DNA from: Acidihalobacter prosperus
GTDB taxonomy: Bacteria > Pseudomonadota > Gammaproteobacteria > DSM-5130 > Acidihalobacteraceae
DNA: 64,000 nt
Direction: 5' to 3'
Assembly: GCF_000754095.2 (NCBI RefSeq)
Contig: NZ_JQSG02000003.1
Coordinates: forward strand, 423,397-487,396
A program made the translations under genes and the position numbers. The notes beneath the pieces are model-generated. The model saw only the letters and a list, made by a program, of their open reading frames with translations, was not told where the DNA came from and searched no databases. Shown piece by piece: positions 4,961 through 63,182 of the stretch. Numbering within the stretch: the stretch's first letter is position 1; every line of letters starts with the position of its first letter.

Positions 4961-4968
4961 GCACGCGT

Positions 4969-5415: not shown

Positions 5416-5725
5416 GGCGCCCCCTGATGTCTGCGGATCACGGCACCATTATCCGCACCCCCCGCGGTCGGCGACTTGATCGGGATCACGCGAAACCGGC
5501 ACCGACGCACGCAACAACGTCCATTTGATGCAGGTCATGCGGACGGCTCGATGTGGTTTACGCGCCGCAACCATCAGCATATTGGTATATAGCGATGCAT
5601 CGGCCGGACAGCGACACGGATAGCGCCCTCCCGGCAATCGAATCTGGCGCCCGCCCGCGACGGCGGGCGGCGGAATTACGAGCCTTTCACAGGGGTCCAG
5701 GCATTCACGCTAGGGAGGTTTCACC
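5416..5725. other. Divergent intergenic region, 310 bp
   Basis: It separates the DsrE-like gene (minus strand) from the Cyc2-like gene (plus strand) and must hold both promoters. An AT-rich patch near 5570-5600 (CATATTGGTATATAG) is the most promoter-like stretch. A clear GGGAGG ribosome binding site at 5713-5718 precedes the ATG at 5726. No further gene or RNA is supported. Confidence 0.4.
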
Positions 5726-7036
5726 ATGTCCATATCGCCACATCGCTCGCTTCGGCTGTCGGCCGGGGCGCTTGGCCTGATGCTGCCGCTCGCGTCGGCC
5801 CACGCGGTACCTTCGTTCGCACGGCAGCTCGGCGTGTCCTGCGCCGCCTGCCATACTGCGTACCCGCAGCTCACGCCCTTCGGCCGCCAGTTCAAGCTGC
5901 TCGGCTATACCATGCAGAACGAGCCGAAGGTGGAAGCCGACAACGGCAAGCGTCTCGACATCGATCGCTGGGCACCGTTGTCGCTGATGGTGATGGTCAG
6001 CGACTCGCTGCCGCAGCACCCGGGATCCGGCGTGGATGCCAGCCAGGTCGAATTCCCCAACCAGCTGAGCCTGTTCTATGCCGGCGCCATCACCCAACAT
6101 GTCGGCACCTTCCTGCAATACACCGCGGGCGACGGCGGCGCCTTCAGCCTCGACAACACCGATGTGCGCTATGCCAATCAGACCAGTCTGGGCAACACCT
6201 CGGTGATCTACGGCATCGACCTCAACAACAATCCCACCGTGCAGGACGTGTGGAACAGCACGCCGGCGTGGCAGTTCCCGTATTTCACGCCGGGCGATAC
6301 GTTTACCACCGCCGGCGGCGCCTCCGTGCCGACCACCCTGATCGAAGGCGCGCTGGCTCAATCGGTCGCCGGGCTGACCGCCTACGGCTATTTCGACAAC
6401 GCCTACTACGCCGAAGCCGGCGTCTATCACGGCATGAACAATCCCTCGACCGCCAGTCCGGCCAACGGCGGTCAAGTCATCAAGGGGATGGCGCCCTACT
6501 GGCGGTTCGCGTACACCGGCCAGGCCGGCAACAACAACTGGGAAATCGGCACCCTGGGGCTGGTCGCGCAAGTACCGGTGAACGGACCCGGCGGCCCGAA
6601 CGACGACTTCACCGATATCGGTTTCGACGGGCAGTATCAGTGGCTCGCGGGCAAGAATACCGTGACCGTCCACGGCGCCTACTACCACGAAAGGCAGGAT
6701 CTCGGAGGCAGCAACGCGCTCGACGGCACCACCTACGGCAACCAGCACCTCGACACCTACAACGTCAGCGCCACCTATTACTACCGGCGCATGTACGGCG
6801 CCACGCTGGCCTATCTCGGCGCAGCCTCGTCGGCCGATGCGGTGGACCAGGGTGCGCTGGGCGGCTATGCGCCGGGCAGCAAGGGCGCGTCGGCCTATAT
6901 CGCCCAACTCGACTACGTGCCCTGGTACAACACGCAGCTCAGCCTGCAGTACATGGATTACGCCAAGGTCGGCGGCAGCACGCGGGACGCGTCCTACAAC
7001 AACTACCTCATGCTCGGCATGTGGTACGCCTACTGA
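5726..7036 (+). CDS. Cyc2-like fused monoheme cytochrome-outer membrane porin
   Basis: A 436-residue exported protein. A signal peptide runs to about residue 27 (ASAHA/VPS). A single heme c motif C39-A-A-C42-H43 follows at once, set in FARQLGVSC and then PQLTPFGRQFKLLGY. That N-terminal pattern is the hallmark of the Cyc2 family of fused cytochrome-porins known from iron-oxidising bacteria. The remaining roughly 370 residues are rich in Tyr, Asn and Gly with alternating aromatic strands and end MLGMWYAY, as in an outer membrane beta-barrel. Only one CxxCH is present. In characterised members the heme sits in the barrel and takes electrons from Fe(II). Whether this protein oxidises iron is inferred; distant family members are uncharacterised. 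Strong ribosome binding site, single-gene unit. Confidence 0.78.
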   Translation: MSISPHRSLRLSAGALGLMLPLASAHAVPSFARQLGVSCAACHTAYPQLTPFGRQFKLLGYTMQNEPKVEADNGKRLDIDRWAPLSLMVMVSDSLPQHPGSGVDASQVEFPNQLSLFYAGAITQHVGTFLQYTAGDGGAFSLDNTDVRYANQTSLGNTSVIYGIDLNNNPTVQDVWNSTPAWQFPYFTPGDTFTTAGGASVPTTLIEGALAQSVAGLTAYGYFDNAYYAEAGVYHGMNNPSTASPANGGQVIKGMAPYWRFAYTGQAGNNNWEIGTLGLVAQVPVNGPGGPNDDFTDIGFDGQYQWLAGKNTVTVHGAYYHERQDLGGSNALDGTTYGNQHLDTYNVSATYYYRRMYGATLAYLGAASSADAVDQGALGGYAPGSKGASAYIAQLDYVPWYNTQLSLQYMDYAKVGGSTRDASYNNYLMLGMWYAY

Positions 7037-7093: not shown

Positions 7094-8389
7094 TCATGAC
7101 GACAGGGCCGAGGGGTCGAAATCCTCCGCCACCAGCGCCTTGACGTCGATACCGTGATCCGCGGGATCGAGTACCTGCGCGACACCCCAGCGCCGCCAGT
7201 TGGCCTCGGAATCGGCCAGGTCGGACAGATTCACCAGGCGCTGGCCCGGGTAGGGTTTGCCGTCGGCATCCCTGATCAGACGGATCAGCGGTTTGAGACG
7301 CCGCATCGGGTCCGCCGACAGCACCACGCCCAGATCGCCGGTGGTCAGCTTGACCAGGCTGCCGATCGGGTAGATGCCGATGCAACGGATGAACTCCTCC
7401 ACCAGTTCGCGCGGAAAATCCTTGGGCGCAATCTGATACAGCAGACGCAATCCTTTGTGCGCAGGCATGCCGGTATGGTAGCAGCGGTCGCTGGTCACCG
7501 CGTCGTACACGTCGACCAGCGAGGTGATCTGTACCGGCAGGGGAATCTGATCGCCCGACCAGCCGTCGGGGTAGCCGTTGCCGGCCAGGCGTTCGTGGTG
7601 ATGGCGGATGATCTGCAAAGCCATGGCCGGCAGACGGTCGTCGGAATTGCGGATGAGTTCGAAGCCTTCGACCGGATGGCGACGCATGATGTCGAACTCG
7701 GCCGGCGATAGCCGGCCCGGCTTGTTCAAGACCTCGGGCGGCGTCTTGATCTTGCCGATGTCATGCAGCAGCGCGCCGAGCCCCAGCACCTTGAGATCGT
7801 CCTCGCTCAGGCCCAGATGCCGCCCGAACGCGACCGCAAGAATGCACACGTTCATGCTGTGGATCGAGGTGTATTCGTCCTTGTACTTGAGGTTGGTCAG
7901 CCACAACGAGGCGTTGACGTTGACGGTGATGGACTCGATCAGGTCGCTGACCACCGCGCGCGCCTCGTCGGTATCCACGCTGGCGCCGAGACGCACGTCC
8001 TCGAAGGCCCGCTTGAGGCACTGGTGCGCGCGCGAACGCACGCGCGCGGCGCGCCCCAGTTCGCGGCGAAAGGCCTGTGGATCGGCCTGCCCCCTCAGAT
8101 CCGGTGGCGCTCCCCGGCGCACCTGCGCTTCATGCGCTTCGGTCGCGACCGCGGCGGGCGCGGGCTTCTCCTCCATCAACATCGGAACGGGTACGGTCGA
8201 GCGCGCAGGATCAACGAACACGTGCCCGCAGTATTCCCGAAGCTGGTCCAGCTCCTCGTCGCTCTCGATCAGGAAACCCTGCAATAGAAAGGGCGTGCCC
8301 CGCCATTCGCGGTCGAGATCGGCCACGAACATGCCGATTCGCAGCGATTCGACATCAACCTTCGCATGCAGCTCGTTGTTGAGATTCAT
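7094..8389 (-). CDS. HD-GYP domain cyclic-di-GMP phosphodiesterase (DUF3391 + HD-GYP)
   Basis: A 431-residue cytoplasmic protein. Residues 1-75 match the DUF3391 N-terminal domain. An HD-GYP domain occupies roughly residues 150-370: the HD pair is H209-D210 in ALLHDIGKIKTP, and the GYP signature is in HHHERLAGNGYPDG (263-276). Both metal-binding signatures are intact, so c-di-GMP hydrolysis is expected. The ATG at 8389 is preferred over an in-frame GTG at 8407 because homology begins there. It is a single-gene unit, convergent with the Cyc2-like gene. With the GGDEF (14090) and EAL (22882) proteins it gives this window three c-di-GMP enzymes. Confidence 0.88.
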   Translation of the reverse strand: MNLNNELHAKVDVESLRIGMFVADLDREWRGTPFLLQGFLIESDEELDQLREYCGHVFVDPARSTVPVPMLMEEKPAPAAVATEAHEAQVRRGAPPDLRGQADPQAFRRELGRAARVRSRAHQCLKRAFEDVRLGASVDTDEARAVVSDLIESITVNVNASLWLTNLKYKDEYTSIHSMNVCILAVAFGRHLGLSEDDLKVLGLGALLHDIGKIKTPPEVLNKPGRLSPAEFDIMRRHPVEGFELIRNSDDRLPAMALQIIRHHHERLAGNGYPDGWSGDQIPLPVQITSLVDVYDAVTSDRCYHTGMPAHKGLRLLYQIAPKDFPRELVEEFIRCIGIYPIGSLVKLTTGDLGVVLSADPMRRLKPLIRLIRDADGKPYPGQRLVNLSDLADSEANWRRWGVAQVLDPADHGIDVKALVAEDFDPSALSS

Positions 8390-8480
8390 GGATACCCCCG
8401 GCGCCACCGCCCCCCGACGGTGTGGCGCAAAACCCGGATTATACGCCCGGGACGATGCGCAGAGGCACGCGGATCGGACG

Positions 8481-9191
8481 CTAGACCGAGGCGCCGGCCA
8501 GCGCGCGCACGCGGTCCTTGTCCTCCAGCAGCTCCTGCGCCATGCCGTCGAAGACGATCTGACCGTTGTCGATCACGTAGGCGCGACTGGAGATTTCGAG
8601 CGCCATGAAGGCGTTCTGCTCGGCCAGCAGTACGGCTTGCCCGTCCTTGACCATCTCCTGGATCAGCGCATAGATCTCCTGCACGATCTTCGGCGCCAGC
8701 CCCTGCGAGGGTTCGTCCATGATGAACAGGTCCGGGTTGGTGATCAGCGCGCGGCCCACCGCCAGCATCTCCTGCTCGCCGCCGGACAGCATGCCGCCCG
8801 GATGCCGGCGGCGCTCGTGCAGGCGCGGGAAGAACTTGTAGATCTCGGCGAGATTCCAGCGCCCCGGCCGGTTCACCGGCACCGCCAGGTTTTCCTCGAC
8901 CGTGAGGTGGGGGAATATCTTGCGGCCCTCGGGCACATAACCCACGCCCAGCCGGGCGACGCCGTGCGGCGGCAGTCGCTCGGCGCGCTTGCCGGCGATG
9001 GTCACGGTGCCTTCGGCGCGCGCCGCGAGCCCCATGATGCCCTTGATGGTGGTGGTCTTGCCGGCGCCGTTGCGGCCCAGCAGGCAAACCACCTCGCCGC
9101 GCCTCACGTTCAGCGAAACGCCATGCAGGATGTGGCTCTTGCCGTAGTAGACATGCAGGTTCTCGGCCTGCAGCAGGCTCTGTTCGTTCAT
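8481..9191 (-). CDS. livF: Branched-chain amino acid-type ABC transporter ATPase LivF
   Basis: A 236-residue ATPase, last gene of a five-gene Liv-type import operon. Walker A GRNGAGKTT, signature LSGGEQEM and Walker B LFIMDEPSQGLAP are all present, and MLSGGEQEMLAVGRAL is the LivF-typical form. Its ATG overlaps the livG stop (ATGA). It pairs with LivG to drive the LivHM channel. The exact substrate (branched-chain amino acids, amides or other small solutes) cannot be told from the ATPase. Confidence 0.92.
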   Translation of the reverse strand: MNEQSLLQAENLHVYYGKSHILHGVSLNVRRGEVVCLLGRNGAGKTTTIKGIMGLAARAEGTVTIAGKRAERLPPHGVARLGVGYVPEGRKIFPHLTVEENLAVPVNRPGRWNLAEIYKFFPRLHERRRHPGGMLSGGEQEMLAVGRALITNPDLFIMDEPSQGLAPKIVQEIYALIQEMVKDGQAVLLAEQNAFMALEISSRAYVIDNGQIVFDGMAQELLEDKDRVRALAGASV

Positions 9192-9943
9192 ATCGTGCTG
9201 CTTCCCAGGTAGGCTTCCTGTACGCGTTCGTTGTCCGCGATCTCGCGCGGCGTGCCTTCGGCGAGCAAACGGCCGTTGTCGAGCACGGTGATGCGGTGCG
9301 CGAGATTGAACACCAGATGCATGTCATGCTCGACGAACAGCACGGTGAGATCGAAGGTCTGGTGCAGACGCTTGATCAGCTCGACCATGTGGTCGGTCTC
9401 GTGGTCACTCATGCCCGCGGTCGGCTCGTCCAGCAGCAGCAGGCGCGGGTCCATGGCCAGCGCCATGGCCACCTCGACCACGCGCTGATCGCCGTGCGCC
9501 AGCTCGCCCACCTCGCGGCCCGCCTTGCCGCCCAGCTGGGTGGCCTCGAGCAGCTCGTCGAGCCGGCGCTTGACGTCCTGGCGCTGCGCGCGCGAGATCC
9601 AGGGGCGCAGGCTCACGCCCATTTCCGCCTCCACCGCGATGCGCAGGTTCTCGTAGACGCTCAGCTCCTTGAACACCTCGGTGATCTGGAAGGTACGCAC
9701 GATGCCCGTGCGCACGCGCTGCTCGACGCTCTGGTGGCTGATCTCGACGTCGTTGAAGTGGATCGAGCCCTCGCTGGGCGTGAACATGCCGCTGATCAGG
9801 TTGAACAGCGTCGTCTTGCCGGCACCGTTGGGGCCGAGCAGGGCGCGTATCTCGCCCTTGTCCACCTTCAGGTTGATGCCGCCGAGCGCCTGCAGCTGGC
9901 CGAAGCGCTTGGAAACCTCGTGCACGTTGAGCAGTGTCGTCAT
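9188..9943 (-). CDS. livG: Branched-chain amino acid-type ABC transporter ATPase LivG
   Basis: A 251-residue ATPase with Walker A GPNGAGKTT, the LivG-style signature region GELAHGDQRVVEVAMAL, Walker B RLLLLDEPTAGM and an H-loop in LFVEHDMHLV. The ATG at 9943 overlaps the stop of livM by 4 bp; the frame continues upstream inside livM, but homology starts at this ATG (MTTLLNVHEVSKRFG). It is the second ATPase of the heterodimer with LivF. Confidence 0.92.
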   Translation of the reverse strand: MTTLLNVHEVSKRFGQLQALGGINLKVDKGEIRALLGPNGAGKTTLFNLISGMFTPSEGSIHFNDVEISHQSVEQRVRTGIVRTFQITEVFKELSVYENLRIAVEAEMGVSLRPWISRAQRQDVKRRLDELLEATQLGGKAGREVGELAHGDQRVVEVAMALAMDPRLLLLDEPTAGMSDHETDHMVELIKRLHQTFDLTVLFVEHDMHLVFNLAHRITVLDNGRLLAEGTPREIADNERVQEAYLGSSTI

Positions 9944-10944
9944 GATTTCACCCGCGCGCGCAGCATGCCGAGCAGCCCCTTGGGAAAGAACAGAACGATG
10001 AGGATGAACATCACGCCCAGTGCCGTCATCCAGTTGTTGGTGTACGAACTCAGGAAGTTCTCGGCGAGCACGTACACCGTGGCGCCGAGCAGCGGCCCCC
10101 AGAAGCTGCGCATGCCGCCGAGCACGCACATCATCACGAAGTCGCCCGAGAGGGTCCAGTGCAGCGCGGCGGGGGAAATGAAATTGTTGAGCAGCGCGTA
10201 CAGCGCCCCGGCCAGCCCGCCGATCATGCCGGACACGGTGAAGGCGATCCACAGCAGGTTGCGTGCGCCGACGCCGAGAAATTTCAGCCGCCGCTCGTTC
10301 TCGCGCACGGCGATGAAGGCATGCCCCAATGGCGAACGCAGCAGCAGTGCGATCAGCCCTGCGACCACGGCGAAGCACAGCAGCACCAGATAGTAGTACT
10401 GCACGCTGTCGAGCTTGAGCATGAAGTTGCCGAGGTCGATGGGTTGCCGGCTGAAACCAAGCAGACCGTCCTCGCCGCCGGTGAAGCTGTTCCAGTTGAC
10501 CACGATGAAATAGAAGGCCTGACCGAAGGCGATGGTGATCATCGAGAAATAGATGCCGCGCAGGCGCACCGCGATCGGTCCCAGCACCGCCGCGGCCAGA
10601 CCGCCGATCAGGATGCCCATCACGATAGCCAGCGGCGTGCTCGGCGCGAGATGCATCAGCGTCTCGCCCGCGGCATAGCCGCCGAGGCCGAAAAAGGCCG
10701 CCTGCCCGAAGGACAGGGCGCCGGAGGTGCCAAGCAGCAGGTTCAGCCCCATGGCCGCCAGCCCCAGCGTAAGCGCCCGGGTCGCCAGCAGGTTGTAGCC
10801 GCCCAGCCAGGGAAACCATATCGGCACGGTCAGCAGCAGCAGCCAGATGACGGCCGGCGCCAGCAGCCGGCGGGACGTTCCAGGCTGCCCGTCGACCACG
10901 CCGCCAGACCTGGCCGTTTGTTTCATGCCCTGTGTCGCGCTCAT
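9940..10944 (-). CDS. livM: Branched-chain amino acid-type ABC transporter permease LivM
   Basis: A 334-residue inner membrane permease with about eight to ten hydrophobic segments. It shows the LivM-type core (MGLNLLLGTSGALSFGQAAF; later GEDGLLGFSR) and the C-terminal ALGVMFILIVLFFPKGL region. The ATG at 10944 overlaps the livH stop. A start at the internal Met 7 is possible. It forms the membrane channel with LivH. Confidence 0.9.
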   Translation of the reverse strand: MSATQGMKQTARSGGVVDGQPGTSRRLLAPAVIWLLLLTVPIWFPWLGGYNLLATRALTLGLAAMGLNLLLGTSGALSFGQAAFFGLGGYAAGETLMHLAPSTPLAIVMGILIGGLAAAVLGPIAVRLRGIYFSMITIAFGQAFYFIVVNWNSFTGGEDGLLGFSRQPIDLGNFMLKLDSVQYYYLVLLCFAVVAGLIALLLRSPLGHAFIAVRENERRLKFLGVGARNLLWIAFTVSGMIGGLAGALYALLNNFISPAALHWTLSGDFVMMCVLGGMRSFWGPLLGATVYVLAENFLSSYTNNWMTALGVMFILIVLFFPKGLLGMLRARVKS

Positions 10945-11807
10945 CCGAAAATACTCTCTTTGCCCAGCAGGCCGCGCGGACGAATCGCGAGGACCAGGGC
11001 CATGATGATGTAGATGACCAGCTCGCTGGCCTGCGGATAGAAGGCCGAGGTGATGCCCGAGGCCAGCCCGATCAGCAGGCCACCGAGCAGGCTGCCGAGC
11101 AGGCTGCCGACGCCGCCGACGATAATGGCGACGAAGCTCGGCATGATCAGGCTGTCGCCCATCTGCGGACTGAGCCCCTGCCAGCCCGCGGCGAGCACGC
11201 CGGCGATCCCCGCGAGGAATATGCCCGCGGCGAAGCTCAGGGCGCGCAGCTGATAGATGCTCACGCCCAGCGCGGAGACCGTGTCGAGGTCAGAAGCGCC
11301 CGCCAGGATGCGCAGCCCGACGCGCGTATAGCGCAGGAACGCTAGCAGGCCGACCGCGAACGTCACCGCGATGACCAGGATCAGCACCCGATAGCCGGTG
11401 ATGAAGAAGTAGGTCTGGCTGAGCGCGCCCTGCAGAAACTGGGGGGTTTGCAGGGGCAGCCCCTGCGCTCCCCAGATGGTGCGGATCATGTCTTCCATGA
11501 TCAGCACCAGGCCGAAGGTGAGCAGCAGGCTGAACAGCGGGTCTCGGCCGTACAAGGGCCGGATCAGCAGGCGCTCGACCACCACGCCCAGCAACGCCGC
11601 GAGCAGCGGCGCCACGATGAGGGCGCCGGCGAAGCCGATATACGGTAGCAATGTGTAGGCCAGGTATCCGGCAAGCGCCAGGAAGCCGCCATGCGCGAAA
11701 TTGATCACCCGGTTAAGCCCGAGTATCAGTGACAGTCCCAGGGCCATGAGCGCGTAGAACACGCCCAGCAACAGGCCGTTGAGCACATCGAACAGTATCA
11801 GCTCCAC
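10941..11807 (-). CDS. livH: Branched-chain amino acid-type ABC transporter permease LivH
   Basis: A 288-residue inner membrane permease with about eight hydrophobic segments and the LivH family signature GLNRVINFAHGGFLALAGYL near residues 30-50. The start is GTG at 11807, supported by GAGGAG six bases upstream. It lies 10 bp after the binding protein gene and overlaps livM, so the operon order is binding protein, H, M, G, F. Confidence 0.9.
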   Translation of the reverse strand: MELILFDVLNGLLLGVFYALMALGLSLILGLNRVINFAHGGFLALAGYLAYTLLPYIGFAGALIVAPLLAALLGVVVERLLIRPLYGRDPLFSLLLTFGLVLIMEDMIRTIWGAQGLPLQTPQFLQGALSQTYFFITGYRVLILVIAVTFAVGLLAFLRYTRVGLRILAGASDLDTVSALGVSIYQLRALSFAAGIFLAGIAGVLAAGWQGLSPQMGDSLIMPSFVAIIVGGVGSLLGSLLGGLLIGLASGITSAFYPQASELVIYIIMALVLAIRPRGLLGKESIFG

Positions 11808-11817
11808 CGGCTTCTCC

Positions 11818-13107
11818 TCAGCTGGGGTAGGTCATATGGCAGCCCTTCTCGGCCGCGCTCTGGGTAATGCTGACGCCGGGCTCGTACTTGAGCACCTTGA
11901 ACAGGTCGGGGTAGTGCCCGCCGGACTTCACTTCGCCGGCAAAGATGCCCGCCATCAGCTGATGGTCGTCGGCGCGGAACTGCAGCTTGGCCGGCGACAG
12001 ACCGACGCTGGCTGGCAGGGTCATCCCCGCCATGGCCCGAGACACCTTCACCGAATCCAGCGACTTCGCCTCGTTGGCGGCCTGCGCGATCGCATGCGTG
12101 GCCACGTAGCCGAACCAGCTGCGCGCGGTCGGATATTTGCCGCCGTTGCGCTTGCGGTAATGTTCGACGAAGGGCTTGACCTCGGGGACGTGGGGCTGAT
12201 CCCACCACCACTCGAAGCTCCAGTCGCCGACGCGCGCGGCGGCGGGCAGGGCCTGCAGCACTTCGAGCTCCATCATGCCGCCGGCCACGCCGAACTTCTT
12301 CTGCAGGCCGAACTGGTTCACCTGGGTCAGCGCATGCACGAGATCGTCGCCGGCCTGCAGGATGATCAGGCAGTCGGGCTTGGCGGCCTGGGCCTGGATC
12401 AGGTAGGAGGAGAAGTCGGTGGTGCCGAGCGGCGCCAGCGCCGAACCCAGCACCGTGCCGCCGTGGGCCTTGAGGATGCGTTCGAAGGCCGCCTGCTCGG
12501 TCAGCCCGAAGGCGTAGTTCGGAGTCAGGAAGTACCAGCGCTTGCCGTACTTGTTCATCAGGGTCTCGGCAATGCCCGCGGCCAGCATGTAGGTCGTGGT
12601 GCACACGCGGAAGGTGCTCCAGGTGCATTGCTTGCCGGTGACCGGAGTGGCGTGACCGCCCGAATCGACGAACAACACGCCCATCTCGCGGCTGGCCTGC
12701 TCGATCGCCTCGGACACGGCCGATGACACGGTGCCTTGCAGGAAATGTACGCCGTGCTGCTTGACCAACTGGTGTGCCTTGGACACGGCAAGCCCGGTCT
12801 TGGAGGCGGTGTCGGTCACGATCAGCTCGAGCTTGCGCCCGAGCACGCCGCCGTTCGCGTTCACCTCGGCGGCCGCCATTTCGGCGCCGCGGGTCTGGTT
12901 GCGGCCCAGCTCGGCGTAGGTGCCCGTGGACGGATTGAGCACGCCGATGCGCACGACGTCACTGGCGGCATAGGCGTTGCGCGAACCCAGCGCCAGCGCC
13001 TGCGAAGCGGCCAGAACCGCACCGGCCTTCAGGAAATCGCGTCGCGAAAACGCGCCCTGCCCATCACTGCCTTCCCCGTTCATTGCGGGTGTTTTCTTCT
13101 CGGCCAT
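11818..13107 (-). CDS. Liv-type periplasmic substrate-binding protein, Tat signal
   Basis: A 429-residue type 1 periplasmic binding protein and first gene of the Liv operon. The N-terminus carries a twin-arginine signal (SRRDFLKAGAVLAAS, cleavage near residues 43-48) rather than the usual Sec signal. The mature part begins VVRIGVLNPSTGTYAELG, typical for LivJ/AmiC-like binding proteins. The ATG at 13107 is preferred because GAGGAGGAG lies five bases upstream; a GTG six bases earlier is the alternative. Tat export suggests folding in the cytoplasm. The ligand is unknown; members of this family bind branched-chain amino acids, amides, urea or aromatic acids. Confidence 0.87.
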   Translation of the reverse strand: MAEKKTPAMNGEGSDGQGAFSRRDFLKAGAVLAASQALALGSRNAYAASDVVRIGVLNPSTGTYAELGRNQTRGAEMAAAEVNANGGVLGRKLELIVTDTASKTGLAVSKAHQLVKQHGVHFLQGTVSSAVSEAIEQASREMGVLFVDSGGHATPVTGKQCTWSTFRVCTTTYMLAAGIAETLMNKYGKRWYFLTPNYAFGLTEQAAFERILKAHGGTVLGSALAPLGTTDFSSYLIQAQAAKPDCLIILQAGDDLVHALTQVNQFGLQKKFGVAGGMMELEVLQALPAAARVGDWSFEWWWDQPHVPEVKPFVEHYRKRNGGKYPTARSWFGYVATHAIAQAANEAKSLDSVKVSRAMAGMTLPASVGLSPAKLQFRADDHQLMAGIFAGEVKSGGHYPDLFKVLKYEPGVSITQSAAEKGCHMTYPS

Positions 13108-55154: not shown

Positions 55155-56171
55155 ATGTTACAGAACCTCACCACCATCACCCAGTTCATCATCGAGGAGC
55201 AGCGCAAGTCGCATGCCGCCACCGGCGACTTCACCGGACTGCTCAACGATATCGTGACCGCCTGCAAGGTCATCTCCAACGGCGTCGACAAGGGCGAGCT
55301 GATCGGCGTGCTCGGCAGCGCCGAGTCGGAGAACGTGCAGGGCGAAACGCAGAAGAAGATGGACATCATCTCCAACGACGTGATGCTCAAGTCCAACGAG
55401 TGGGCCGGCCACCTCGCCGCCATGGGCTCCGAGGAGATGGACGACATCTACCCGATCCCGGAAGGCTACCCGCGCGGCAAGTACCTGCTGGTGTTCGACC
55501 CGCTGGACGGCTCCTCCAACATGGACGTGAACGTCTCCGTCGGCACCATCTTTTCGATCCTGCGCGCGCCCGAGGGCGTGGACAAGCCCACCGCCGCCGA
55601 CTTCCTGCAGCCGGGCACCACCCAGGTCTGCGCCGGCTACGCGCTCTACGGGCCGTCCACCATGATGGTGCTGACCACCGGCCAGGGCGTGAACGGCTTC
55701 ACCCTGGACAAGGACATCGGCGAGTTCATCCTCACCCACCGCAACATGACCATCCCGGCCGACACCGGCGAGTTCGCCATCAACATGTCGAACTACCGCC
55801 ACTGGGAGCCGCCGGTCCGCCGCTACATCGACGAATGCGTGCAGGGCAAGACCGGCCCCCGCGGCCGCGACTTCAACATGCGCTGGGTCGCCTCCATGGT
55901 CGCCGAAGTGCACCGCATCCTCACCCGCGGCGGCATCTTCATGTACCCCATCGACGAAAAGCTCAAGTCCAAGGGCCAGGGCGGCAAGCTGCGCCTGATG
56001 TACGAAGCCAACCCGATGAGCTTCATCGTCGAGCAGGCCGGCGGCATGAGCTCCACCGGCCGCGAGCGCATCCTCGACCTCCAGCCCAACGACCTGCACC
56101 AGCGCGTGCCGGTCATCCTCGGCTCCAAAAACGAGGTCGAGCGCGTGGTCGGATATCACAGCGAAGGCTGA
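55155..56171 (+). CDS. fbp: Class I fructose-1,6-bisphosphatase
   Basis: A 338-residue enzyme that hydrolyses fructose-1,6-bisphosphate to fructose-6-phosphate, for gluconeogenesis or the Calvin cycle. It has the metal-binding motif [22 protein letters not shown] and [15 protein letters not shown]. Length is normal. The ATG at 55155 is chosen since similarity starts there; the ribosome binding site is weak. A 7-bp hairpin lies in the leader (55108-55126). An intrinsic terminator follows at 56211-56240. Confidence 0.95.
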
Positions 56172-56210
56172 GCCTTCGCCTGCCGGCGACTGCCGGCAAC
56201 GCAACATCGA

Positions 56211-56240
56211 ACGCCGGGCCTCGCGCCCGGCGTTTTTGTT
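56211..56240 (+). terminator. Intrinsic terminator of fbp
   Basis: ACGCCGGGC (56211-56219) and GCCCGGCGT (56225-56233) form a 9-bp stem with a five-base loop, followed by TTTTGTTT. It lies 40 bp after the fbp stop on the plus strand. Confidence 0.85.
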
Positions 56241-56323
56241 TGCGGTGTGAAAATTGGGCCGACATATCTCGACATGCACGATCGTTTGTGGTTTGCAGAG
56301 CCGTTAGTCGGAACGGCGGGATG

Positions 56324-56368
56324 GTTTCACACGCCTTGAGCGCTTCCCGCGCAGTTAGTGGGAAGCGG
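56324..56368 (+). repeat. 45-nt direct repeat, copy A
   Basis: It starts GTTTCACACGCCTTGAGC and contains the hairpin CGCTTCCC-N11-GGGAAGCG. Copy B at 58716-58760 has the same sequence with two mismatches in the same orientation. A partial unit, GTTAGTCGGAACGGCGG, lies about 51 bp before the matching part, so copies may once have been tandem with a period near 52 bp. The TolC-like fragment ends inside this repeat. Confidence 0.85.
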
Positions 56369-56666
56369 CGGCGCGCAGCGATGCCCAGGCCGCGGCCGTC
56401 TGTGGGTTGTGCTGCAATGCCCAGGCTGTTAAGGCCGGCAACGAGCGCAGCCGGGCGATCATTCCAGGAATGGGGGGAGTAGCTGACGGCGCTACTGGTA
56501 GGTTCGCACGGTTGGCGTTGTAATGACCTTGCTCGGGTTCCAGAGCCTGCGTATCCCAGGGATCAGCACTATAGCCGTAGGCAGAAACTCCCCCTGAATC
56601 TGCCTGAGCGATGCTGATACCACTCAAGATAAGTGCCAGGAATACGAATGATGGAAAAGTGCGCAT
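56355..56666 (-). pseudogene. N-terminal fragment of TolC-like outer membrane efflux protein
   Basis: The minus-strand ORF begins with a signal peptide (FPSFVFLALILSGISIAQA) and, after a variable region, reads LTAWALQHNPQTAAAWASLRAAA. That is the first helix pattern of outer membrane efflux proteins (L-x-x-A-L-x-x-N-P-x-x-x-A). It then stops within direct repeat A, after about 100 residues where the family has 400 or more. An in-frame start at 56690 is also possible. I read it as the truncated remnant of the outer membrane component of a type I exporter, cut off at the repeat. Confidence 0.62.
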
Positions 56667-56690
56667 CTTACCGAATATCGTTGGGCGCAT

Positions 56691-57084
56691 TATTCAAGAC
56701 AACCCCTTTCCCGGGCATTGGTCATTGCCACATGGGTACGGCAAAACACCAGACATTACCGCGCGCCGGCTAGCGGCGGTTGTCTTGGGCGCAGCGGGGA
56801 GATAGCATGCAAACAATAAACAGCGGAGAAATAAATTAAATCAAAACCAAAAATATTTAAAAATCTTCCAAGCCACGCTTGAATTCCGGTTACTATAATC
56901 TCGAAATATAAAACGCGACCAACAAAATCACACCCTTATATATCATGCAAAAAATAGAAAAAAACAGGAGACGCAAACATAGTCAGCGCTCTTATCTTTA
57001 TGAACTCGATCCTTAAATCAACCCCATGGGGCCTATTTTTTATCTCTAATATCAATAAAAATAGCTATACCCAAATATCACAAT
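56691..57084. other. AT-rich gap, no gene seen
   Basis: 56810-57084 is very AT-rich. CCCCATGGGG followed by CCTATTTTTT near 57023-57040 is a weak terminator-like sequence, with a loop too small to be convincing. No gene or GG-leader peptide could be found. Confidence 0.4.
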
Positions 57085-57498
57085 TCAAGACATTTTTATA
57101 ATTAAATTTTTTAACCACCAGTACACATAATTCAATGATGCTGCCAATTCATCCCATTTTCTTTTAAAGAACTTATAAAATACAAATACTATAAAACCAT
57201 AGAACGGGGGCACCACCGCCAAATTCCATATCCCTATATTGACGCCAAAGGCCGGCCATATATAAATATATAAATTAAATACCGACAAACCATAAATGAG
57301 ATACACAAAACCTCTTTTCTCTTCGCTATTGTATCTAACACCGAATAAGTTAACGATAGTCCACAGATAGAAAAATACAGCAGCTAACCACGCGGTTTTT
57401 CCTGGCCCATCTCCCTGAAAAAATGTCACATAGCCAGAAAACAATAGTGTTATAAACACGACCAATATCAGGCAAAAAAACTGAACGCCCTTTTCCAA
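57085..57498 (-). CDS. Small membrane protein, candidate bacteriocin immunity protein
   Basis: A 137-residue protein with about four hydrophobic helices (including FFCLILVVFITLLFSGYVTFF and WNLAVVPPFYGFIVFVFYKFF) and a basic C-terminus. AT-rich codon use. The start is TTG at 57498 with GAGGTG at a suitable distance. It is the next minus-strand gene after the double-glycine peptide at 57735-57959, as expected for an immunity protein, but the 236-bp gap and a hairpin lie between. Immunity is inferred from size, topology and position; the family is not recognised. Confidence 0.55.
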   Translation of the reverse strand: MEKGVQFFCLILVVFITLLFSGYVTFFQGDGPGKTAWLAAVFFYLWTIVNLFGVRYNSEEKRGFVYLIYGLSVFNLYIYIWPAFGVNIGIWNLAVVPPFYGFIVFVFYKFFKRKWDELAASLNYVYWWLKNLIIKMS

Positions 57499-57700
57499 GA
57501 ATCACCTCATAAATAAGTTTGTTATAGTCATATAATTAAAAAATTCCAATAGAATTACCTTGAAAAACGTGACTAACATAGACCCTCAGTCATGAAGACT
57601 AAAATAGACAATTGAATCGCTGATCAAATCTGGAAACTACGTTCCAATAATGCAGCATGATGGTTATCATTGGGACGCATTTAGCTGAATCGAATAAATC

Positions 57701-57736
57701 AGCCCCCCCCAGCTTTAGGCTGGGGGGGGGGCTTTT
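57701..57736. terminator. Hairpin with long C and G runs after the bacteriocin gene
   Basis: AGCCCCCCCCAGC pairs with GCTGGGGGGGGGGCT across TTTAG: runs of 8 C and 10 G. On the plus strand TTTT follows. On the minus strand it comes directly after the peptide gene stop and is followed by GATTTATT, so it may act in both directions. The homopolymer runs are prone to slippage. Confidence 0.55.
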
Positions 57737-57959
57737 AAAGATCAGCGGCTTGGAATGCCGCATAGCTGTGGGCGAAAGCTGCGCCCGCACCAGGTAGTGT
57801 CAAACCGAAGGTATCCACGGCCATATAGGACTCGACTGCACCAAGGGCGAAATATCCCGCGCCTAAAGCTACGTCACCCAAGTTAACACCGTTCTGATTT
57901 CTTGTATTGCTGCTCCCACCGCTTACGAACTGCATTTCGCCCAAAGTCAACTCACGCAT
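57735..57959 (-). CDS. Double-glycine-leader peptide, candidate class II bacteriocin 1
   Basis: A 74-residue peptide. The leader MRELTLGEMQFVSGG ends with the Gly-Gly cut by C39-peptidase ABC exporters. The mature part (59 residues) is rich in Gly and Ala with small-residue spacing (ALGAGYFALGAVES), as in helical class IIb bacteriocins. The second peptide at 62793 has a closely similar leader. A candidate immunity protein follows downstream. AT-rich surroundings and the absence of an intact exporter suggest transfer or decay. Antibacterial activity is inferred. Confidence 0.7.
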   Translation of the reverse strand: MRELTLGEMQFVSGGSSNTRNQNGVNLGDVALGAGYFALGAVESYMAVDTFGLTLPGAGAAFAHSYAAFQAADL

Positions 57960-57986
57960 GATTCCATGCCCTCGTTGGTCTCATAT

Positions 57987-58048
57987 TCGCGGGAGCGCCT
58001 CCCGCAGGATTCTCCTAGTGCAAGAATTTTAAATACCGAAAGTTGTGG
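57987..58048 (-). promoter_or_regulatory. Upstream element shared with bacteriocin 2
   Basis: This region, 28-89 bp before the bacteriocin 1 start, aligns with 62991-63056 before bacteriocin 2. Shared blocks are CGGGA and CGCCTCC, a GCAAGAA block and CCGAAA on the plus strand. Copy 1 contains the perfect inverted repeat CGGGAG-CGC-CTCCCG. It may hold a common promoter or operator. Confidence 0.5.
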
Positions 58049-58237
58049 CTTCATCGATTGAAGAACCAAGCACTAGTACTAATTTAGTGCAAGTGCTTAA
58101 TGTTTAGTTCCATGGTAAAAAATTCATATCGAATATGAATATTTATTATATTTATCTTTCTTGGGGGAGTGTAATAGCATGAGATTGCTGATTGGGTTTG
58201 TGTATACAGCTAGTTTGGCCAAACTTCTAAACCATCT
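58049..58237. other. AT-rich gap, no gene seen
   Basis: AT-rich sequence between the bacteriocin 1 upstream element and the ABC exporter remnant. CACTAGTACTAATTTAGTGC-like short repeats near 58070-58090 could be an operator. No gene is supported. Confidence 0.3.
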
Positions 58238-58712
58238 TCACACAATCTCTGCACCAGGCTGGCGCAGGAGGCTCCGCTTGAGCACTTGGCGCGATACTTC
58301 TTCCAAACGCCCGTCACTCAGACACATGAGTGCGGTCGCACTGCACAATACTTTCCCAGCGATGTGCAATCACCACGTGGGTTATACGTTCACTTGGCGC
58401 TCGCGCAGGCTGTCGAGACGACTGGTCGCCTCGTCGAGCACCAATACGCGGGGCTTTGCCAGGAGCGCGCGAGCCAACAGTACGCGCTGCTGCTGGCCGC
58501 CGGAGAGCGCCGAGCCCATGTCGCCGACCAAGCTCTGATAGCCCATGGGCAGCGCGGCGATCTCGTCGTGCACGGCGGCCGCACGACTGGCGGCAACGAT
58601 GTCATCGAGACTCGCCTCTGGATTGGCCAAAGCGATGTTGTCGGCAAGCGTGCCTGCAAACAGTGCATCGACCTGCATGACGGAGCCGACCAGGGGGAGC
58701 GGTAATAGCTCG
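58238..58712 (-). pseudogene. Frameshifted C-terminal fragment of C39-type ABC exporter ATPase domain
   Basis: The longest intact part (58382-58712) reads [18 protein letters not shown] (Q-loop), [15 protein letters not shown] (signature) and [13 protein letters not shown] (Walker B), typical for bacteriocin/peptide ABC exporters. After RERQVN the frame shifts: THVVIAHR (H-loop) follows in another frame, and then CLSDGRLEEVSRQVLKRS in a third, ending at TGA 58238. Walker A, the membrane domain and any C39 peptidase are absent; the 5' end abuts repeat B at 58716. This is the remnant of the exporter that probably processed the GG peptides. Confidence 0.7.
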
Positions 58713-58715
58713 ATA

Positions 58716-58760
58716 GTTTCACACGCCTTAAGCGCTTCCCGCGCAGTTAGTAGGAAGCGG
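58716..58760 (+). repeat. 45-nt direct repeat, copy B
   Basis: Matches 56324-56368 with two mismatches in the same orientation. It abuts the broken end of the ABC exporter fragment. With copy A it brackets a 2.35-kb AT-rich segment holding bacteriocin 1 and both exporter remnants. Confidence 0.85.
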
Positions 58761-58768
58761 TGGGTCTA

Positions 58769-58785
58769 TTTCACACGCCTTGAGC
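58769..58785 (+). repeat. Partial third copy of the direct repeat
   Basis: TTTCACACGCCTTGAGC is identical to the first part of copy A and lies 52 bp after the same point in copy B. This supports a former tandem array with a period of about 52 bp. Confidence 0.7.
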
Positions 58786-58826
58786 AATGGCGTTCTTGAC
58801 TAGTTTCGGTGTGGCGTGCGAGTGAC

Positions 58827-59151
58827 TTTGTACTGCGCATCCCTGCGCCTTACCCCTACGGGGCTGACGCGAACGGCTACGCCTATGCTTTTTATTTCCC
58901 GTTACGCCTTGCCACGTCCGTGCGCGCCGACGTGGGGTCGGGCGGCAGGACGCCGCCCGAGCAGCTTCGCCCGGACGGCTAATGCCTGCTGTGCCCCTCG
59001 GCGACGCGTGCGGGCGAGGTCTGCCCGAAGGGACAAGACGTTTCGGGCGCGTTTCTTTCGTCCATTTCTTTACGCGAATAAAGAAAAAATCGTCGGGAAC
59101 GACAATCGCGTAAGCCCCGGAGGGGTGAGGCGCAGGGATGCGTCGAACAAA
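58827..59151. repeat. Element of about 325 bp with 45-nt imperfect terminal inverted repeats
   Basis: 58827-58871 and the reverse complement of 59107-59151 match at 39 of 45 positions (TTTGT, then CGCATCCCTGCGCC and CGGGGC). The centre (58872-59106) has no ORF I would trust, although several frames stay open because of GC content. The size, inverted ends and lack of a transposase resemble a MITE or a large stem-loop intergenic repeat. Confidence 0.6.
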
Positions 59152-59507
59152 TCGGATCGGGCACGTCGCTATGCCAATCGAAAAGCAGAAAAACTGATTC
59201 GCGCCCGAAATCAGGACCAGAGCCATCAGGAATGAATATACGAGAACTACGAATCACATCAACGGCACGAATTAATCAACTACTGGCATATGTAATAAGA
59301 TTAAGGCTGATTTCGGCCACTAGCGGGCAGCCTTGCTTCTACAACAGACCTATTTGAAGTTCTGTTTCTTGGCCATAACCGGCCACTCAATGCCCGAAAA
59401 TAGAACCAGCAATATATCGAGCAATGCCACATCGATAATGCAAAACGACGCCCCCCAGTGCTCGATAGCGATGAAAGCTATGCGAGGTGGATACACGTGG
59501 CCACTGC
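59152..59507. other. Gene-free gap before the MFS gene
   Basis: 356 bp of mixed composition. AAGGCTG near 59304 and CAGCCTT near 59328 could form a short stem after the MFS gene (minus strand). Nothing else is supported. Confidence 0.35.
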
Positions 59508-60926
59508 TCATGAATCGTCTTCGAGCATCGAAGCTCGATCAGATGAAACACAGACACTGACCGCAAGTCCCGCAGCAATCGTCAGCAGTATCGCCGCCAC
59601 CCCGAACGTGGTCTGCATGCCGGACGCAACCGCATCGTGAGCAGCTTCGGCAACGTTGCTCGCGCCCGATGCGGACGCAAATACCGCCCCCATGGCCGAA
59701 GCGCCGGTGATGAGCCCGAGGTTGCGTGACAGGTTGAGCACACCTGAAATTGCTCCCTTGTGACCCGTATCCACGTCCTGCATCACGGCCGTATTGTTGG
59801 CCGCTTGGAACAATTGGTAGCCTGGCGTAAGCATGAAGATCGCGCCGACGTAGCCGATGACTCCGAATGCCTCCGGCAGCACAGCCAGACAGATCGCACC
59901 GACAGCCATCACGACCAACCCTACAACAACCATGAGCGGAGCGCCGAAGCGGTCCACGATGTGGCCGGCCGGCACGCCGCTCAGCGTGGAGATCGCCGGG
60001 CCGATTGCCATGACGAGTCCGACCAGCACCGCGTCGAGCCTAAGTCCGATCGACAGATAGAAGGGGCCGATCAGCAGCGTCGCCATCATCACCGTCGCGA
60101 CGATCGCTGTCATGACCAATCGAGGGCGCAACCCAGACTTGCGCAGGGTCGCCAGGCGGACCAAGGGCGTGGACACTTTCGTTTCGACAAATGCGAAAAG
60201 CGCGAGGCCGATGCCGGCGGCCACGAGTAGCGCCACGTTGTTTACGCCAAAGCGGCCGTGACCGAGTGTCATCGACAGCGTGTAGGCTGCTAGCGTCAGT
60301 CCGAGCAGCAGCGCACCCAGGCTATCGAAACCGCCCCGCGCGCTGCCGAATGTTGGGTCGTCCTGCCGCACATGGCGCTGGGCGAGCAAAAGATTGATGA
60401 GGCCCAGCGGGACCATGACAAGAAAGATCGAGCGCCAACCGGGGCCAGCGATCAGCAACCCGCCGAGCGAAGGCCCGAGCGCGGTGCCAATCGCCGACAT
60501 CGTGCCAAGCAATCCCATCACAGTACCTGTTCGCGACTTGGGCACCGTCTCGCCGACCTGGGCGATCGTGAGCGCCATCAGAATGGCCGCGGCTAGACCC
60601 TGCACCGCACGGGCGGCGACCAACGTCCACAAGGTAGGCGCGATGCCACACAGTATCGAGGCGATGGTGAATAATGCGATGCCGGTCAGAAGTACGCGGC
60701 GGCGGCCGACCAGATCGCCCAATCGGCCGACGCTGACGCTCATGATCGTAATGGTCAACAGATACGCCAGGACAACCCATTGCACCTCCTGGAAGGAAAC
60801 GCCGAACGCGTGGGTCAAGGTCGGGAGGGCAATGTTTGCGATGCTGGTTCCCAACGAGGCCAGCAGCATCGACAGCGCAAGACTGCCGAGCGCCCATCGA
60901 TTCACGCTGCCTTTCATATCAGCCAT
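59508..60926 (-). CDS. MFS drug exporter, DHA2 (14-helix) type
   Basis: A 472-residue inner membrane exporter with about 14 hydrophobic helices. It shows the DHA2 family start GSLALSMLLASLGTSIANIALPTL, motif A GRLGDLVGRRRVLLTG, and motif C near GTALGPSLGGLLI. The ATG at 60926 has GAGGGG seven bases upstream. It is divergent from a LysR regulator at 61244, which probably controls it. Drug or metabolite export is likely; the substrate is unknown. It lies between the two bacteriocin loci, but no direct link is shown. Confidence 0.87.
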   Translation of the reverse strand: MADMKGSVNRWALGSLALSMLLASLGTSIANIALPTLTHAFGVSFQEVQWVVLAYLLTITIMSVSVGRLGDLVGRRRVLLTGIALFTIASILCGIAPTLWTLVAARAVQGLAAAILMALTIAQVGETVPKSRTGTVMGLLGTMSAIGTALGPSLGGLLIAGPGWRSIFLVMVPLGLINLLLAQRHVRQDDPTFGSARGGFDSLGALLLGLTLAAYTLSMTLGHGRFGVNNVALLVAAGIGLALFAFVETKVSTPLVRLATLRKSGLRPRLVMTAIVATVMMATLLIGPFYLSIGLRLDAVLVGLVMAIGPAISTLSGVPAGHIVDRFGAPLMVVVGLVVMAVGAICLAVLPEAFGVIGYVGAIFMLTPGYQLFQAANNTAVMQDVDTGHKGAISGVLNLSRNLGLITGASAMGAVFASASGASNVAEAAHDAVASGMQTTFGVAAILLTIAAGLAVSVCVSSDRASMLEDDS

Positions 60927-61101
60927 GATGGTCCCCTCTAACGACGAGCCGAAAACTGTCAGCCAACGCTACGGCTTTGTCGACGAAGCGATTCGACTTG
61001 GCCGTCCAGATGAGCTCGCTGGTCGCGTAGTACGAGTCCCAGTAATCGCACTCCACGTTCACATCAAATCGACTTGTCATCATTGTTGTTCCCCACGTCA
61101 T
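60919..61101 (-). CDS. Possible small ORF upstream of the MFS gene
   Basis: A 53-60 codon ORF (alternative starts at 61101, 61083 and 61080) whose stop overlaps the MFS start by 8 bp. The peptide SRFDVNVECDYWDSYYATSE is acidic and aromatic-rich and not recognised. It could be a leader peptide coupled to the MFS gene or chance. Low confidence. Confidence 0.25.
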   Translation of the reverse strand: MTWGTTMMTSRFDVNVECDYWDSYYATSELIWTAKSNRFVDKAVALADSFRLVVRGDHHG

Positions 61102-61243
61102 TTACATTAGGCCGGACCCCGAAACTCAAGGTCTAAACTTCACGCGATCACGATAATCTCGGACACAAAGTGGCGGAAGACGCATCAACTGCATTACATG
61201 CGTGCGTTTGACGCCATGACTGAGGAGGGCTTATGGTCGTTGC

Positions 61244-62146
61244 ATGCCTAGGCCGGACCTAAATCTGCTCATAACCCTCAATGCACTGCTTTCTGAAGGC
61301 AGCATCGTGGGCGCCGCGAAAAGGCTGAAGCTCAGTCCATCCGCAATGAGTCGGGCCGTTGCCCGCCTGCGCAAAACGACAGGCGATCCGCTCATGGTGC
61401 GTATTGGGCGCGAGCTGGTACCCACGCCCAGAGCGCTGGAACTGCGTGAACGCGCGGCGCAGTTGGTGCGGGATGCCGAGATGCTGCTTGGTCCGGCCGA
61501 GGCGCTCGATCTTGCGTCGTTGGCGCGAACATTTACCCTGCGCACGGGCGACGGCTTCGTAGAGAACTTCGGGCACCGGCTGATCGAGGCCATTCACCGC
61601 GAAGCGCCTGGCGTACGCTTACGCTTTATGCAAAAGACCGGCGAGGACAACGAAGCGCTTCTCACGGGCGCCGTCGATTTGGAAACCGGTGTCGTGAGGC
61701 AGAAAGCTCACCCTGAACTGCGCACGCAGGCGTTGTTTGTCGACCGCTTCATCGGCGTGGTGCGCAAGGGACATCCCTTGAGCCAGCGTGAGATCACTCC
61801 GTCAAGCTACGCGGCAGGACTGCACGTCGACGTGTTACGTCATGTGCCATTACCTGAAGCCGATGCGGGGCCGATAGATAGTGCGCTGACCACGGCGGGT
61901 TTCGAACGCAAGGTTTCGGTCGCCGTAGGAGGATTTTCGAGCGCACTCGCGCTGGCACGTGCTTCCGATCTGATCGCCACCGTGCCGCGACGGCATACGG
62001 AAACCTTGCGTGAGGATATGTTCTGCTTCGAGCTGCCGTTTCTGTTACCGAAAATTAGTGTCTCGATGCTATGGCATCCTCGACTGCACGAGGATCAGGC
62101 ACACCGTTGGCTGCGCGGACAGATACGTAACGCATGTGCCGAATAG
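61244..62146 (+). CDS. LysR-family transcriptional regulator
   Basis: A 300-residue regulator. The N-terminal HTH reads LITLNALLSEGSIVGAAKRLKLSPSAMSRAVARLR, followed by a NodD/PcpR-like substrate domain. The ATG at 61244 is preferred; GGAGGG at 61223-61228 is rather far upstream. It is divergent from the MFS exporter over a 317-bp gap, the usual arrangement for a LysR regulator and its target. Confidence 0.88.
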   Translation: MPRPDLNLLITLNALLSEGSIVGAAKRLKLSPSAMSRAVARLRKTTGDPLMVRIGRELVPTPRALELRERAAQLVRDAEMLLGPAEALDLASLARTFTLRTGDGFVENFGHRLIEAIHREAPGVRLRFMQKTGEDNEALLTGAVDLETGVVRQKAHPELRTQALFVDRFIGVVRKGHPLSQREITPSSYAAGLHVDVLRHVPLPEADAGPIDSALTTAGFERKVSVAVGGFSSALALARASDLIATVPRRHTETLREDMFCFELPFLLPKISVSMLWHPRLHEDQAHRWLRGQIRNACAE

Positions 62147-62408
62147 ATCGAACGGGCACTCACTTTTACCCAAAATCGTCATACCCCCCCGCCGAACAGG
62201 GTGAGTGCTAGGCAGGCCGAACCAAAAAACTGAAGCATGTCACGTGCATTGGTTATTACTGCAGGTGTCGCAACGAGAAATCTGGGAGGCATTTTCTGGG
62301 ACCGGACTACAAAACATAATGATGCGTATTTCAAACGCATCGTGCACGGGGAGCAACGAGCAAGGACCACGTGCATATTTACTAAATGAATGAGAGCTTG
62401 TTCGTACT
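62147..62408. other. Gap between LysR and the immunity-like gene
   Basis: 262 bp, AT-richer than the LysR gene. Short ORFs on both strands have no ribosome binding site or recognisable product. No terminator is clear. Confidence 0.35.
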
Positions 62409-62783
62409 CTACCTGTTGCGTTCGTTAAACCCTAGGATACCGGTCTTCCAAAGAGGAGCTATAGCGACCAAGAAAATTACGAGACTTATTGCTTGTAGCC
62501 ACAATGGGATTTCTTTGAACGCCGATAAGCACATGACTAAATTGTAGAGCGTGATTGCGACACCGAGTCTTACGGCTCCCGTTCTACGCCCCCTAAAGTA
62601 GCCAAAAAAAGCGGAAACATAGCAAAAGAGGAATGCCAGTGCAACGACAATACTGACCGTATGATCTGAATCTTCTGAGACGTCTATAACGCTGCGATAT
62701 GCGAAAAGGGCGAGCGCGACAATACCCACACTCAACAAAGTTGAGAACAGAAGGAAACCGAGCCCACCCTTTGTAGACTTCAT
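62409..62783 (-). CDS. Small membrane protein, candidate bacteriocin immunity protein 2
   Basis: A 124-residue protein with four hydrophobic helices (including FLLFSTLLSVGIVALALFAY and IVVALAFLFCYVSAFFGYF) and charged ends. It starts 9 bp after the stop of the double-glycine peptide at 62793-62963, so it is almost certainly co-translated with it. The peptide-plus-membrane-protein pair is the usual bacteriocin/immunity layout. No named family is recognised. Confidence 0.62.
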   Translation of the reverse strand: MKSTKGGLGFLLFSTLLSVGIVALALFAYRSVIDVSEDSDHTVSIVVALAFLFCYVSAFFGYFRGRRTGAVRLGVAITLYNLVMCLSAFKEIPLWLQAISLVIFLVAIAPLWKTGILGFNERNR

Positions 62784-62792
62784 GGCCTATTA

Positions 62793-62963
62793 CTAGGCTT
62801 CAACAATGGCGTATGCGAGAAGGACCCCGGCAGCAAATGCTGCTCCCGCAGGAGCACCAATTACCCCAGCGACTGTGCCGATCGCACCAATGACTTGCAT
62901 GCCGCTTGACAAAGACATTCCACCAGACATTTTTTCGATTTCATCCAAGGGCAATTCACGCAT
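62793..62963 (-). CDS. Double-glycine-leader peptide, candidate class II bacteriocin 2
   Basis: A 56-residue peptide. The leader MRELPLDEIEKMSGG ends with Gly-Gly. The 41-residue mature part is almost entirely Gly, Ala, Val and Ile with repeated GxxxG spacing (GAIGTVAGVIGAPAG), expected of a membrane-inserting class IIb bacteriocin. The ATG at 62963 follows GGGAG by about seven bases; the longer frame to 63170 is not needed. The leader shares MREL-x-L-x-E and SGG with peptide 1. The immunity candidate follows 9 bp downstream. Confidence 0.72.
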   Translation of the reverse strand: MRELPLDEIEKMSGGMSLSSGMQVIGAIGTVAGVIGAPAGAAFAAGVLLAYAIVEA

Positions 62964-62990
62964 GATGTGCTCCCTAATGATGCTTTGATG

Positions 62991-63056
62991 TTTTCGGGAT
63001 ACGCCTCCTGCATGCCTCTTGCTGGCGCAAGAACTTACAATGCCGAAAATCGTTGC
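62991..63056 (-). promoter_or_regulatory. Upstream element shared with bacteriocin 1
   Basis: Aligns with 57987-58048. Shared plus-strand blocks are CGGGA, CGCCTCC, GCAAGAA and CCGAAA in the same order and near-equal spacing. It lies 28-93 bp before the bacteriocin 2 start. Probably a common promoter or regulatory region, or a remnant of a duplicated gene unit. Confidence 0.5.
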
Positions 63057-63182
63057 CGACCGAACGGAGACGGACGAAGCAGAAATTTGGGTTTGCACAT
63101 CTAATCCGTCTTGGTAGTCCACGATGTGTCGCGACGACTCTAACATAAAGCAGATCAATCCCCCTGCCACGCTCCCCTCACA

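Follow-up and report, generated by a model that had tools for sequence, protein, structure and literature searches.

The peptide gene at the centre of this locus lies on the reverse strand at 57735–57959 of the window, by which we mean the whole 64,000-nucleotide stretch of DNA analyzed. It encodes a precursor of 74 amino acids (74 codons), P1, that reads MRELTLGEMQFVSGG (the 15-residue leader) followed by SSNTRNQNGVNLGDVALGAGYFALGAVESYMAVDTFGLTLPGAGAAFAHSYAAFQAADL (the mature part of 59 aa), and was recognized from the open reading frame (ORF), the leader score and the identity of the protein in a sister species. Below, the window genome is called G000, the sister species G001 and a third species of the genus G002. 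Leaders were scored with a matrix of 15 positions, built from 41 leaders chosen by the GG-leader pattern among peptides adjoining 80 exporters, which are relatives of the G001 exporter in genera other than that of the window. Across 609 ORFs of the window, P1 ranked first with 39.1 bits, followed by the ORF at 62793–62963 (reverse strand) with 27.5 bits and a third one with 10.4 bits; the maxima for first-order Markov sequences were 15.3 bits in 40 copies of the window and 19.5 bits in 150 copies of the insert. The double-glycine leader named in a preliminary description, made from the letters only, is thus genuine. Genome-wide, the MREL...GG pattern matched seven times, and translations read by eye showed a GG leader only in P1 and the second-ranked ORF. 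Two other features given in that description were recovered as well: the mature part is rich in Gly and Ala (36% together), and the gene sits in an AT-rich insert, with 41% GC at 57001–58000 and 65% in the whole window. Mature P1 contains no Cys, has a charge of about −3 and is only mildly hydrophobic.

Downstream on the same strand, a membrane protein of 137 aa, imm1, is encoded at 57085–57498, with three to four hydrophobic helices according to its hydropathy and a TTG start codon preceded by the Shine–Dalgarno sequence AGGTGA. This is the hydrophobic neighbor that had been proposed as an immunity partner, and we retain it as a candidate for that role. Its AlphaFold model has four to five helices and is of low confidence (pLDDT 64). 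The two genes are 236 nt apart, and a terminator-like hairpin of 11 pairs (57703–57729, reverse strand), the arm length of which is altered relative to G001 by homopolymer indels, lies inside the gap; because of this distance and the hairpin, the pairing of P1 and imm1 rests on adjacency and co-inheritance.

A second pair, not picked up earlier, was found 5 kb from P1. The second-ranked ORF (62793–62963, reverse strand) encodes P2, a GG-leader precursor of 56 aa with a glycine-zipper-like hydrophobic mature part and a homologue beside the G001 exporter, and 9 nt past it begins imm2 (62409–62783, reverse strand; 124 aa), a candidate immunity protein for P2. The latter shares 64% identity with its positional counterpart in G001 and was modeled by AlphaFold as four helices, with low confidence (pLDDT 64). 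Both imm1 and imm2 have three hydrophobic segments above the threshold, and with 137 and 124 aa they fall within the size range of 51–216 aa applied to immunity proteins of class II microcin systems (PMC9746304). Homology between the two was looked for and is undetectable. Between the P1 cassette and the second pair lie a gene for an MFS transporter (59508–60926, reverse strand; Pfam MFS_1, 3e-53), without a nucleotide match in the G001 region and absent from the G001 locus, and, adjoining it, one for a LysR-type regulator (61244–62146, forward strand; Pfam HTH_1 and LysR_substrate).

The P1–imm1 pair is flanked by remnants of export genes. On one side, a frameshifted 3′ remnant of a C39-ABC exporter gene (58241–58693, reverse strand) covers residues 565–721 and is broken by a gap of 19 nt and one inserted nucleotide; it matches the G001 exporter at 74% (tblastn) and contains one internal TGA and one internal TAA. 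On the other, a 5′ remnant of a gene for a TolC-like outer-membrane protein (56397–56681, reverse strand) covers residues 8–102 of 487 and matches the G001 TolC at 82% (tblastn). The ends of this cassette are marked by two copies of a 52-nt direct repeat (56320–56371 and, at 92%, 58712–58763, both forward strand). That these are copies of a general dispersed repeat was rejected, since two copies each were found in the window genome and G001 and none in G002–G004.

The equivalent locus of G001 (L016; the coordinates that follow refer to it) holds a complete secretion operon, consisting of an intact HlyD-type adaptor (3342–4676; Pfam HlyD_3, 3e-16), a C39-peptidase ABC exporter of 721 aa (4673–6838; Peptidase_C39 2e-35, ABC_membrane 7e-36, ABC_tran 7e-29), P2 (7132–7308), membrane protein 2 (7319–7690) and an intact TolC-type protein (8059–9522; OEP 1e-50). 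A regulator gene accompanying the operon was not found. In the exporter, the triad Cys30/His103/Asp119 is intact and Walker A, LSGGQ and Walker B are present; the triad matches, with equal spacing, the CvaB residues Cys32/His105/Asp121 used in the cinful pipeline (PMC9746304). In other proteobacteria, exporters related to it adjoin peptides with the same MREL...EI..VSGG leader. At five of the exporter loci (L044, L046, L054, L093 and L105, from, e.g., Andreprevotia, Dyella tabacisoli, Intestinirhabdus, Thalassotalea and Shewanella), at least two adjacent GG peptides were seen. G001 also carries the second unit, with an exporter 3′ fragment (10398–10871), P1 (11165–11389), membrane protein 1 (11631–12044) and a TolC 5′ fragment (12443–12763). 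Together with the sequence that separates it from the P1 leader, the exporter fragment is 95.6% identical to the matching part of the operon. Compared with the window genome, the P1 protein is 100% identical and imm1 99% identical, with 1 nt different in 414.

In the window genome, P2–imm2 directly adjoins the GNAT gene; in G001, this place is taken by the genes for HlyD and the exporter. The TolC copy of the locus, intact in G001, is a stub in the window genome. A genome-wide search gave no intact C39-ABC exporter: the best ABC match is the broken stub at 58241–58693, and all others begin past the C39 domain. The best match to an HlyD/CvaA-like adaptor anywhere in the genome is a marginal one (E = 6e-4 across 84 residues). 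A missed exporter copy is unlikely because the assembly, which consists of eight contigs, has a rated completeness of 100%. The C39 domain was matched four times, in each case by a stand-alone ORF of 132–252 aa. P1 could conceivably still be exported and processed by another transporter with the help of such a stand-alone C39 peptidase, and in pneumococcus a second exporter partly substitutes for a lost one (PMC4739721); however, the stand-alone proteins have no fused ABC domains and are distant from the locus, and no CvaA-like adaptor was found genome-wide, and we regard this explanation as highly improbable. As the C39-ABC exporter and the HlyD adaptor are missing, we file the pairs of the window genome as an apparent export-orphaned remnant of a class II microcin system and not as a working system.

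A class II microcin system is described as having five components, with a precursor leader ending in GG or GA (PMC9746304). Here, the leaders of P1 and P2 and the adjacent small membrane proteins are in place, the C39-ABC exporter with its triad is found in G001 only, and the window genome lacks both this exporter and the HlyD/CvaA membrane fusion protein; as far as the components can be read from sequence, the G001 locus has all of them. When the ORFs of both loci, in the window and in G001, were inspected, no modification gene of the class IIb (siderophore) type was seen near the precursor. Among the closest known systems are the class II (IIa) microcins of Enterobacterales, such as microcin V (CvaA/CvaB/TolC, Cvi), which share the short precursor with an MREL...EI..VSGG-type leader, the C39-ABC exporter and its Cys/His/Asp triad, the HlyD adaptor, TolC and the adjacent small membrane protein, an operon that is complete in G001. 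The differences are that neither mature P1 nor either of the membrane proteins significantly resembles a known microcin or immunity protein, that the TolC gene sits within the G001 operon, and that the window genome is without the adaptor, the exporter and the full TolC of the locus. Of the class II bacteriocin precursor suggested at first, the GG peptide with a membrane-protein partner stood, and the G001 locus links the two to export by a C39-ABC/HlyD/TolC system; the design is that of the Gram-negative counterpart, the class II microcin, and not that of a Gram-positive class II bacteriocin.

Family models gave nothing above cut-off for P1, its best score being against MccV (E = 0.15, 13 bits against 27), and the Bacteriocin_IIc and cerein-type models were unmatched. 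P2 came closer to MccV (E = 0.013, and E = 0.005 for G001 P2), with both scores under the 27-bit cut-off, and G001 P2 matched PF10439 and TIGR03949 at sub-threshold level only. In these searches, similarity of P1 to any verified microcin was undetectable. Relatives of P1 were confined to the genus in a search of 369 class-level genomes and absent among the genome contigs searched. The searches for imm1 in 398 phylum-level genomes and for imm2 in the 369 class-level genomes returned marginal matches only (E 0.001–0.01), several of them within larger unrelated frames, and neither P1 nor imm1 had a match in plasmids. The type of system is already known; for P1, imm1 and imm2, our searches brought up no convincing relatives beyond the genus. 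Microcin cores are described as highly variable, and a lack of relatives is usual for them and for immunity proteins (PMC9746304).

The broken exporter and TolC stubs, and a genome that retains no exporter, are what one would expect if the P1 cassette were dead DNA, left over from a second microcin operon that has decayed, and neither expressed nor selected at present. We find this rather doubtful. Two species carry P1 and imm1 intact, and the 895-nt block at 57085–57979 differs between G000 and G001 by 2–3 substitutions, where 41 would be expected at the divergence of the flanks (Poisson P of two or fewer, about 1e-15), which points to selection on the block or its recent exchange. The 236-nt gap between the genes has no substitutions at all, making recent exchange likelier than protein-level selection alone. 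Upstream of P1, the stretch at 57980–58350 is a mosaic with about 50–80% identity to G001, with both of its sides at about 91–100%, suggesting that promoter regions were exchanged as well. Decay also sits poorly with the dN/dS of imm2, which is below 1 (about 0.27 by NG86 and 0.45 by YN00).

The second pair shows a different pattern. Between G000 and G001, dS is 0.69 for P2 and 0.85 for imm2, compared with 0.05 for fbp, and dN/dS of P2 and imm2 is about 0.3 by NG86 and 0.45–0.63 by YN00; we read the two as replaced alleles that appear to have remained constrained. Their joint divergence between the species is the pattern expected of toxin–immunity pairs. This bears on a reading in which P1 and P2 are GG peptides with a non-killing role, in signaling or in self-lysis of the kind ascribed to the gonococcal Nap peptides, and the membrane proteins are receptors or regulators of activity. 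A leader and an exporter imply export only, P1 has no detectable similarity to a verified microcin, and the Naps are bacteriocin-like, promote autolysis and showed no antimicrobial activity (PMC11798529). Nevertheless, each peptide has its own distinct membrane protein, imm1 and imm2 not being detectably related, the P2–imm2 pair diverges together and the G001 operon has no regulator gene; we hold a non-killing role to be improbable.

We consider it likely that P1 is the precursor of a small secreted peptide with antibacterial action, of class II microcin design, and imm1 its inner-membrane immunity protein, with export orphaned in the window genome. The reading builds on the leader, the neighboring genes, the operon of the sister genome, the loss of the exporter and the pseudogene stubs. 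In the ancestor and in G001, the C39 domain of the CvaB-like ABC exporter would recognize the leader and cut after Gly–Gly, and the mature peptide would exit via the HlyD adaptor and TolC and act on the membrane of close relatives without the immunity protein; from the features named we infer the antibacterial action, the membrane target, the immunity function and any present-day benefit. The window genome has lost the genes for HlyD and the exporter by deletion, and its TolC gene and spare exporter fragment are stubs, so that P1 and P2 would no longer be processed via the CvaB-like route. The pair there is probably a leftover, providing at most immunity against producing relatives. Against the microcin reading, P1 exceeds no family cut-off, its pairing with imm1 is by adjacency and co-inheritance, its mature part is only mildly hydrophobic and known GG peptides can be non-killing.

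Loci orphaned in a similar manner have been described. Escherichia coli 536 and related strains retain the precursor and immunity genes of MccM in the MccM/MccH47 island with truncated export genes (PMC7472721), although the peptides are unrelated and, in our case, the adaptor and exporter genes are deleted and a second cassette has partial exporter and TolC arms. At the blp locus, pneumococci whose exporter is defective still carry the GG bacteriocin and immunity genes and retain immunity as "cheaters" (PMC4739721); that locus differs in being Gram-positive, pheromone-regulated and a larger gene array, whereas no peptide-specific regulator was seen here. The gonococcal Naps (PMC11798529) are likewise small bacteriocin-like peptides at a variable locus on a horizontally acquired island but are cationic and promote autolysis, whereas P1 is anionic and has a candidate immunity gene. 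Of 1,562 Serratia marcescens assemblies that harbor a putative microcin, only 5 are without the exporter (PMC13101503), suggesting that exporter-less microcin loci are uncommon, at least in that species.

The unusual part of the locus is a peptide–immunity cassette with exporter-gene arms, a layout found at none of the 80 other exporter loci, L057 having only a 45-nt match. The arm-flanked second cassette could be what is left of a second operon after decay; that it serves as a swap cassette is less likely. In the latter case, the P1–imm1 pair would be stored as a spare warhead between the exporter 3′ and TolC 5′ arms, bounded by 52-nt direct repeats with no further copy in the genome, and homologous recombination via the arms would bring it into the active exporter operon to replace the resident pair; we give this a slim chance. 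If true, this would point to a way in which microcin loci of Gram-negative bacteria change their specificity. To our knowledge, nearly all verified microcins come from enteric bacteria, and the locus adds two microcin-type peptides that are unlike known sequences and from a lineage outside that group. With a producer and a non-producer among sister species, protection by an orphan immunity protein against the peptide of a neighbor becomes directly testable.

Within the genus, the interval between fbp and the GNAT gene (window 56172–63182; L016; L140:4382–8480) is a hot spot for insertions. Its cargo varies by species and comprises the microcin system, the MFS and LysR genes, ECF-sigma-like genes, or a hydrolase with a PIN-domain pair. 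In G002, the site holds a hydrolase gene and a gene pair made up of a PIN-domain protein and its DNA-binding partner (names from translations read by eye), and the microcin genes are absent. A tRNA or tmRNA integration site was searched for in the window and the sister loci, and none was found. Within the otherwise fully variable site, a stretch of about 314 nt without an evident gene (window 58896–59209; L016:9881–10194; L140:6783–7101) is kept in three species at 97% and 85% identity, unmatched in Rfam. Just downstream of fbp, at 56171–56238 on the forward strand, we observed a weak SorX-like sRNA match (30.3 bits, E = 0.00035; gathering score 46.6).
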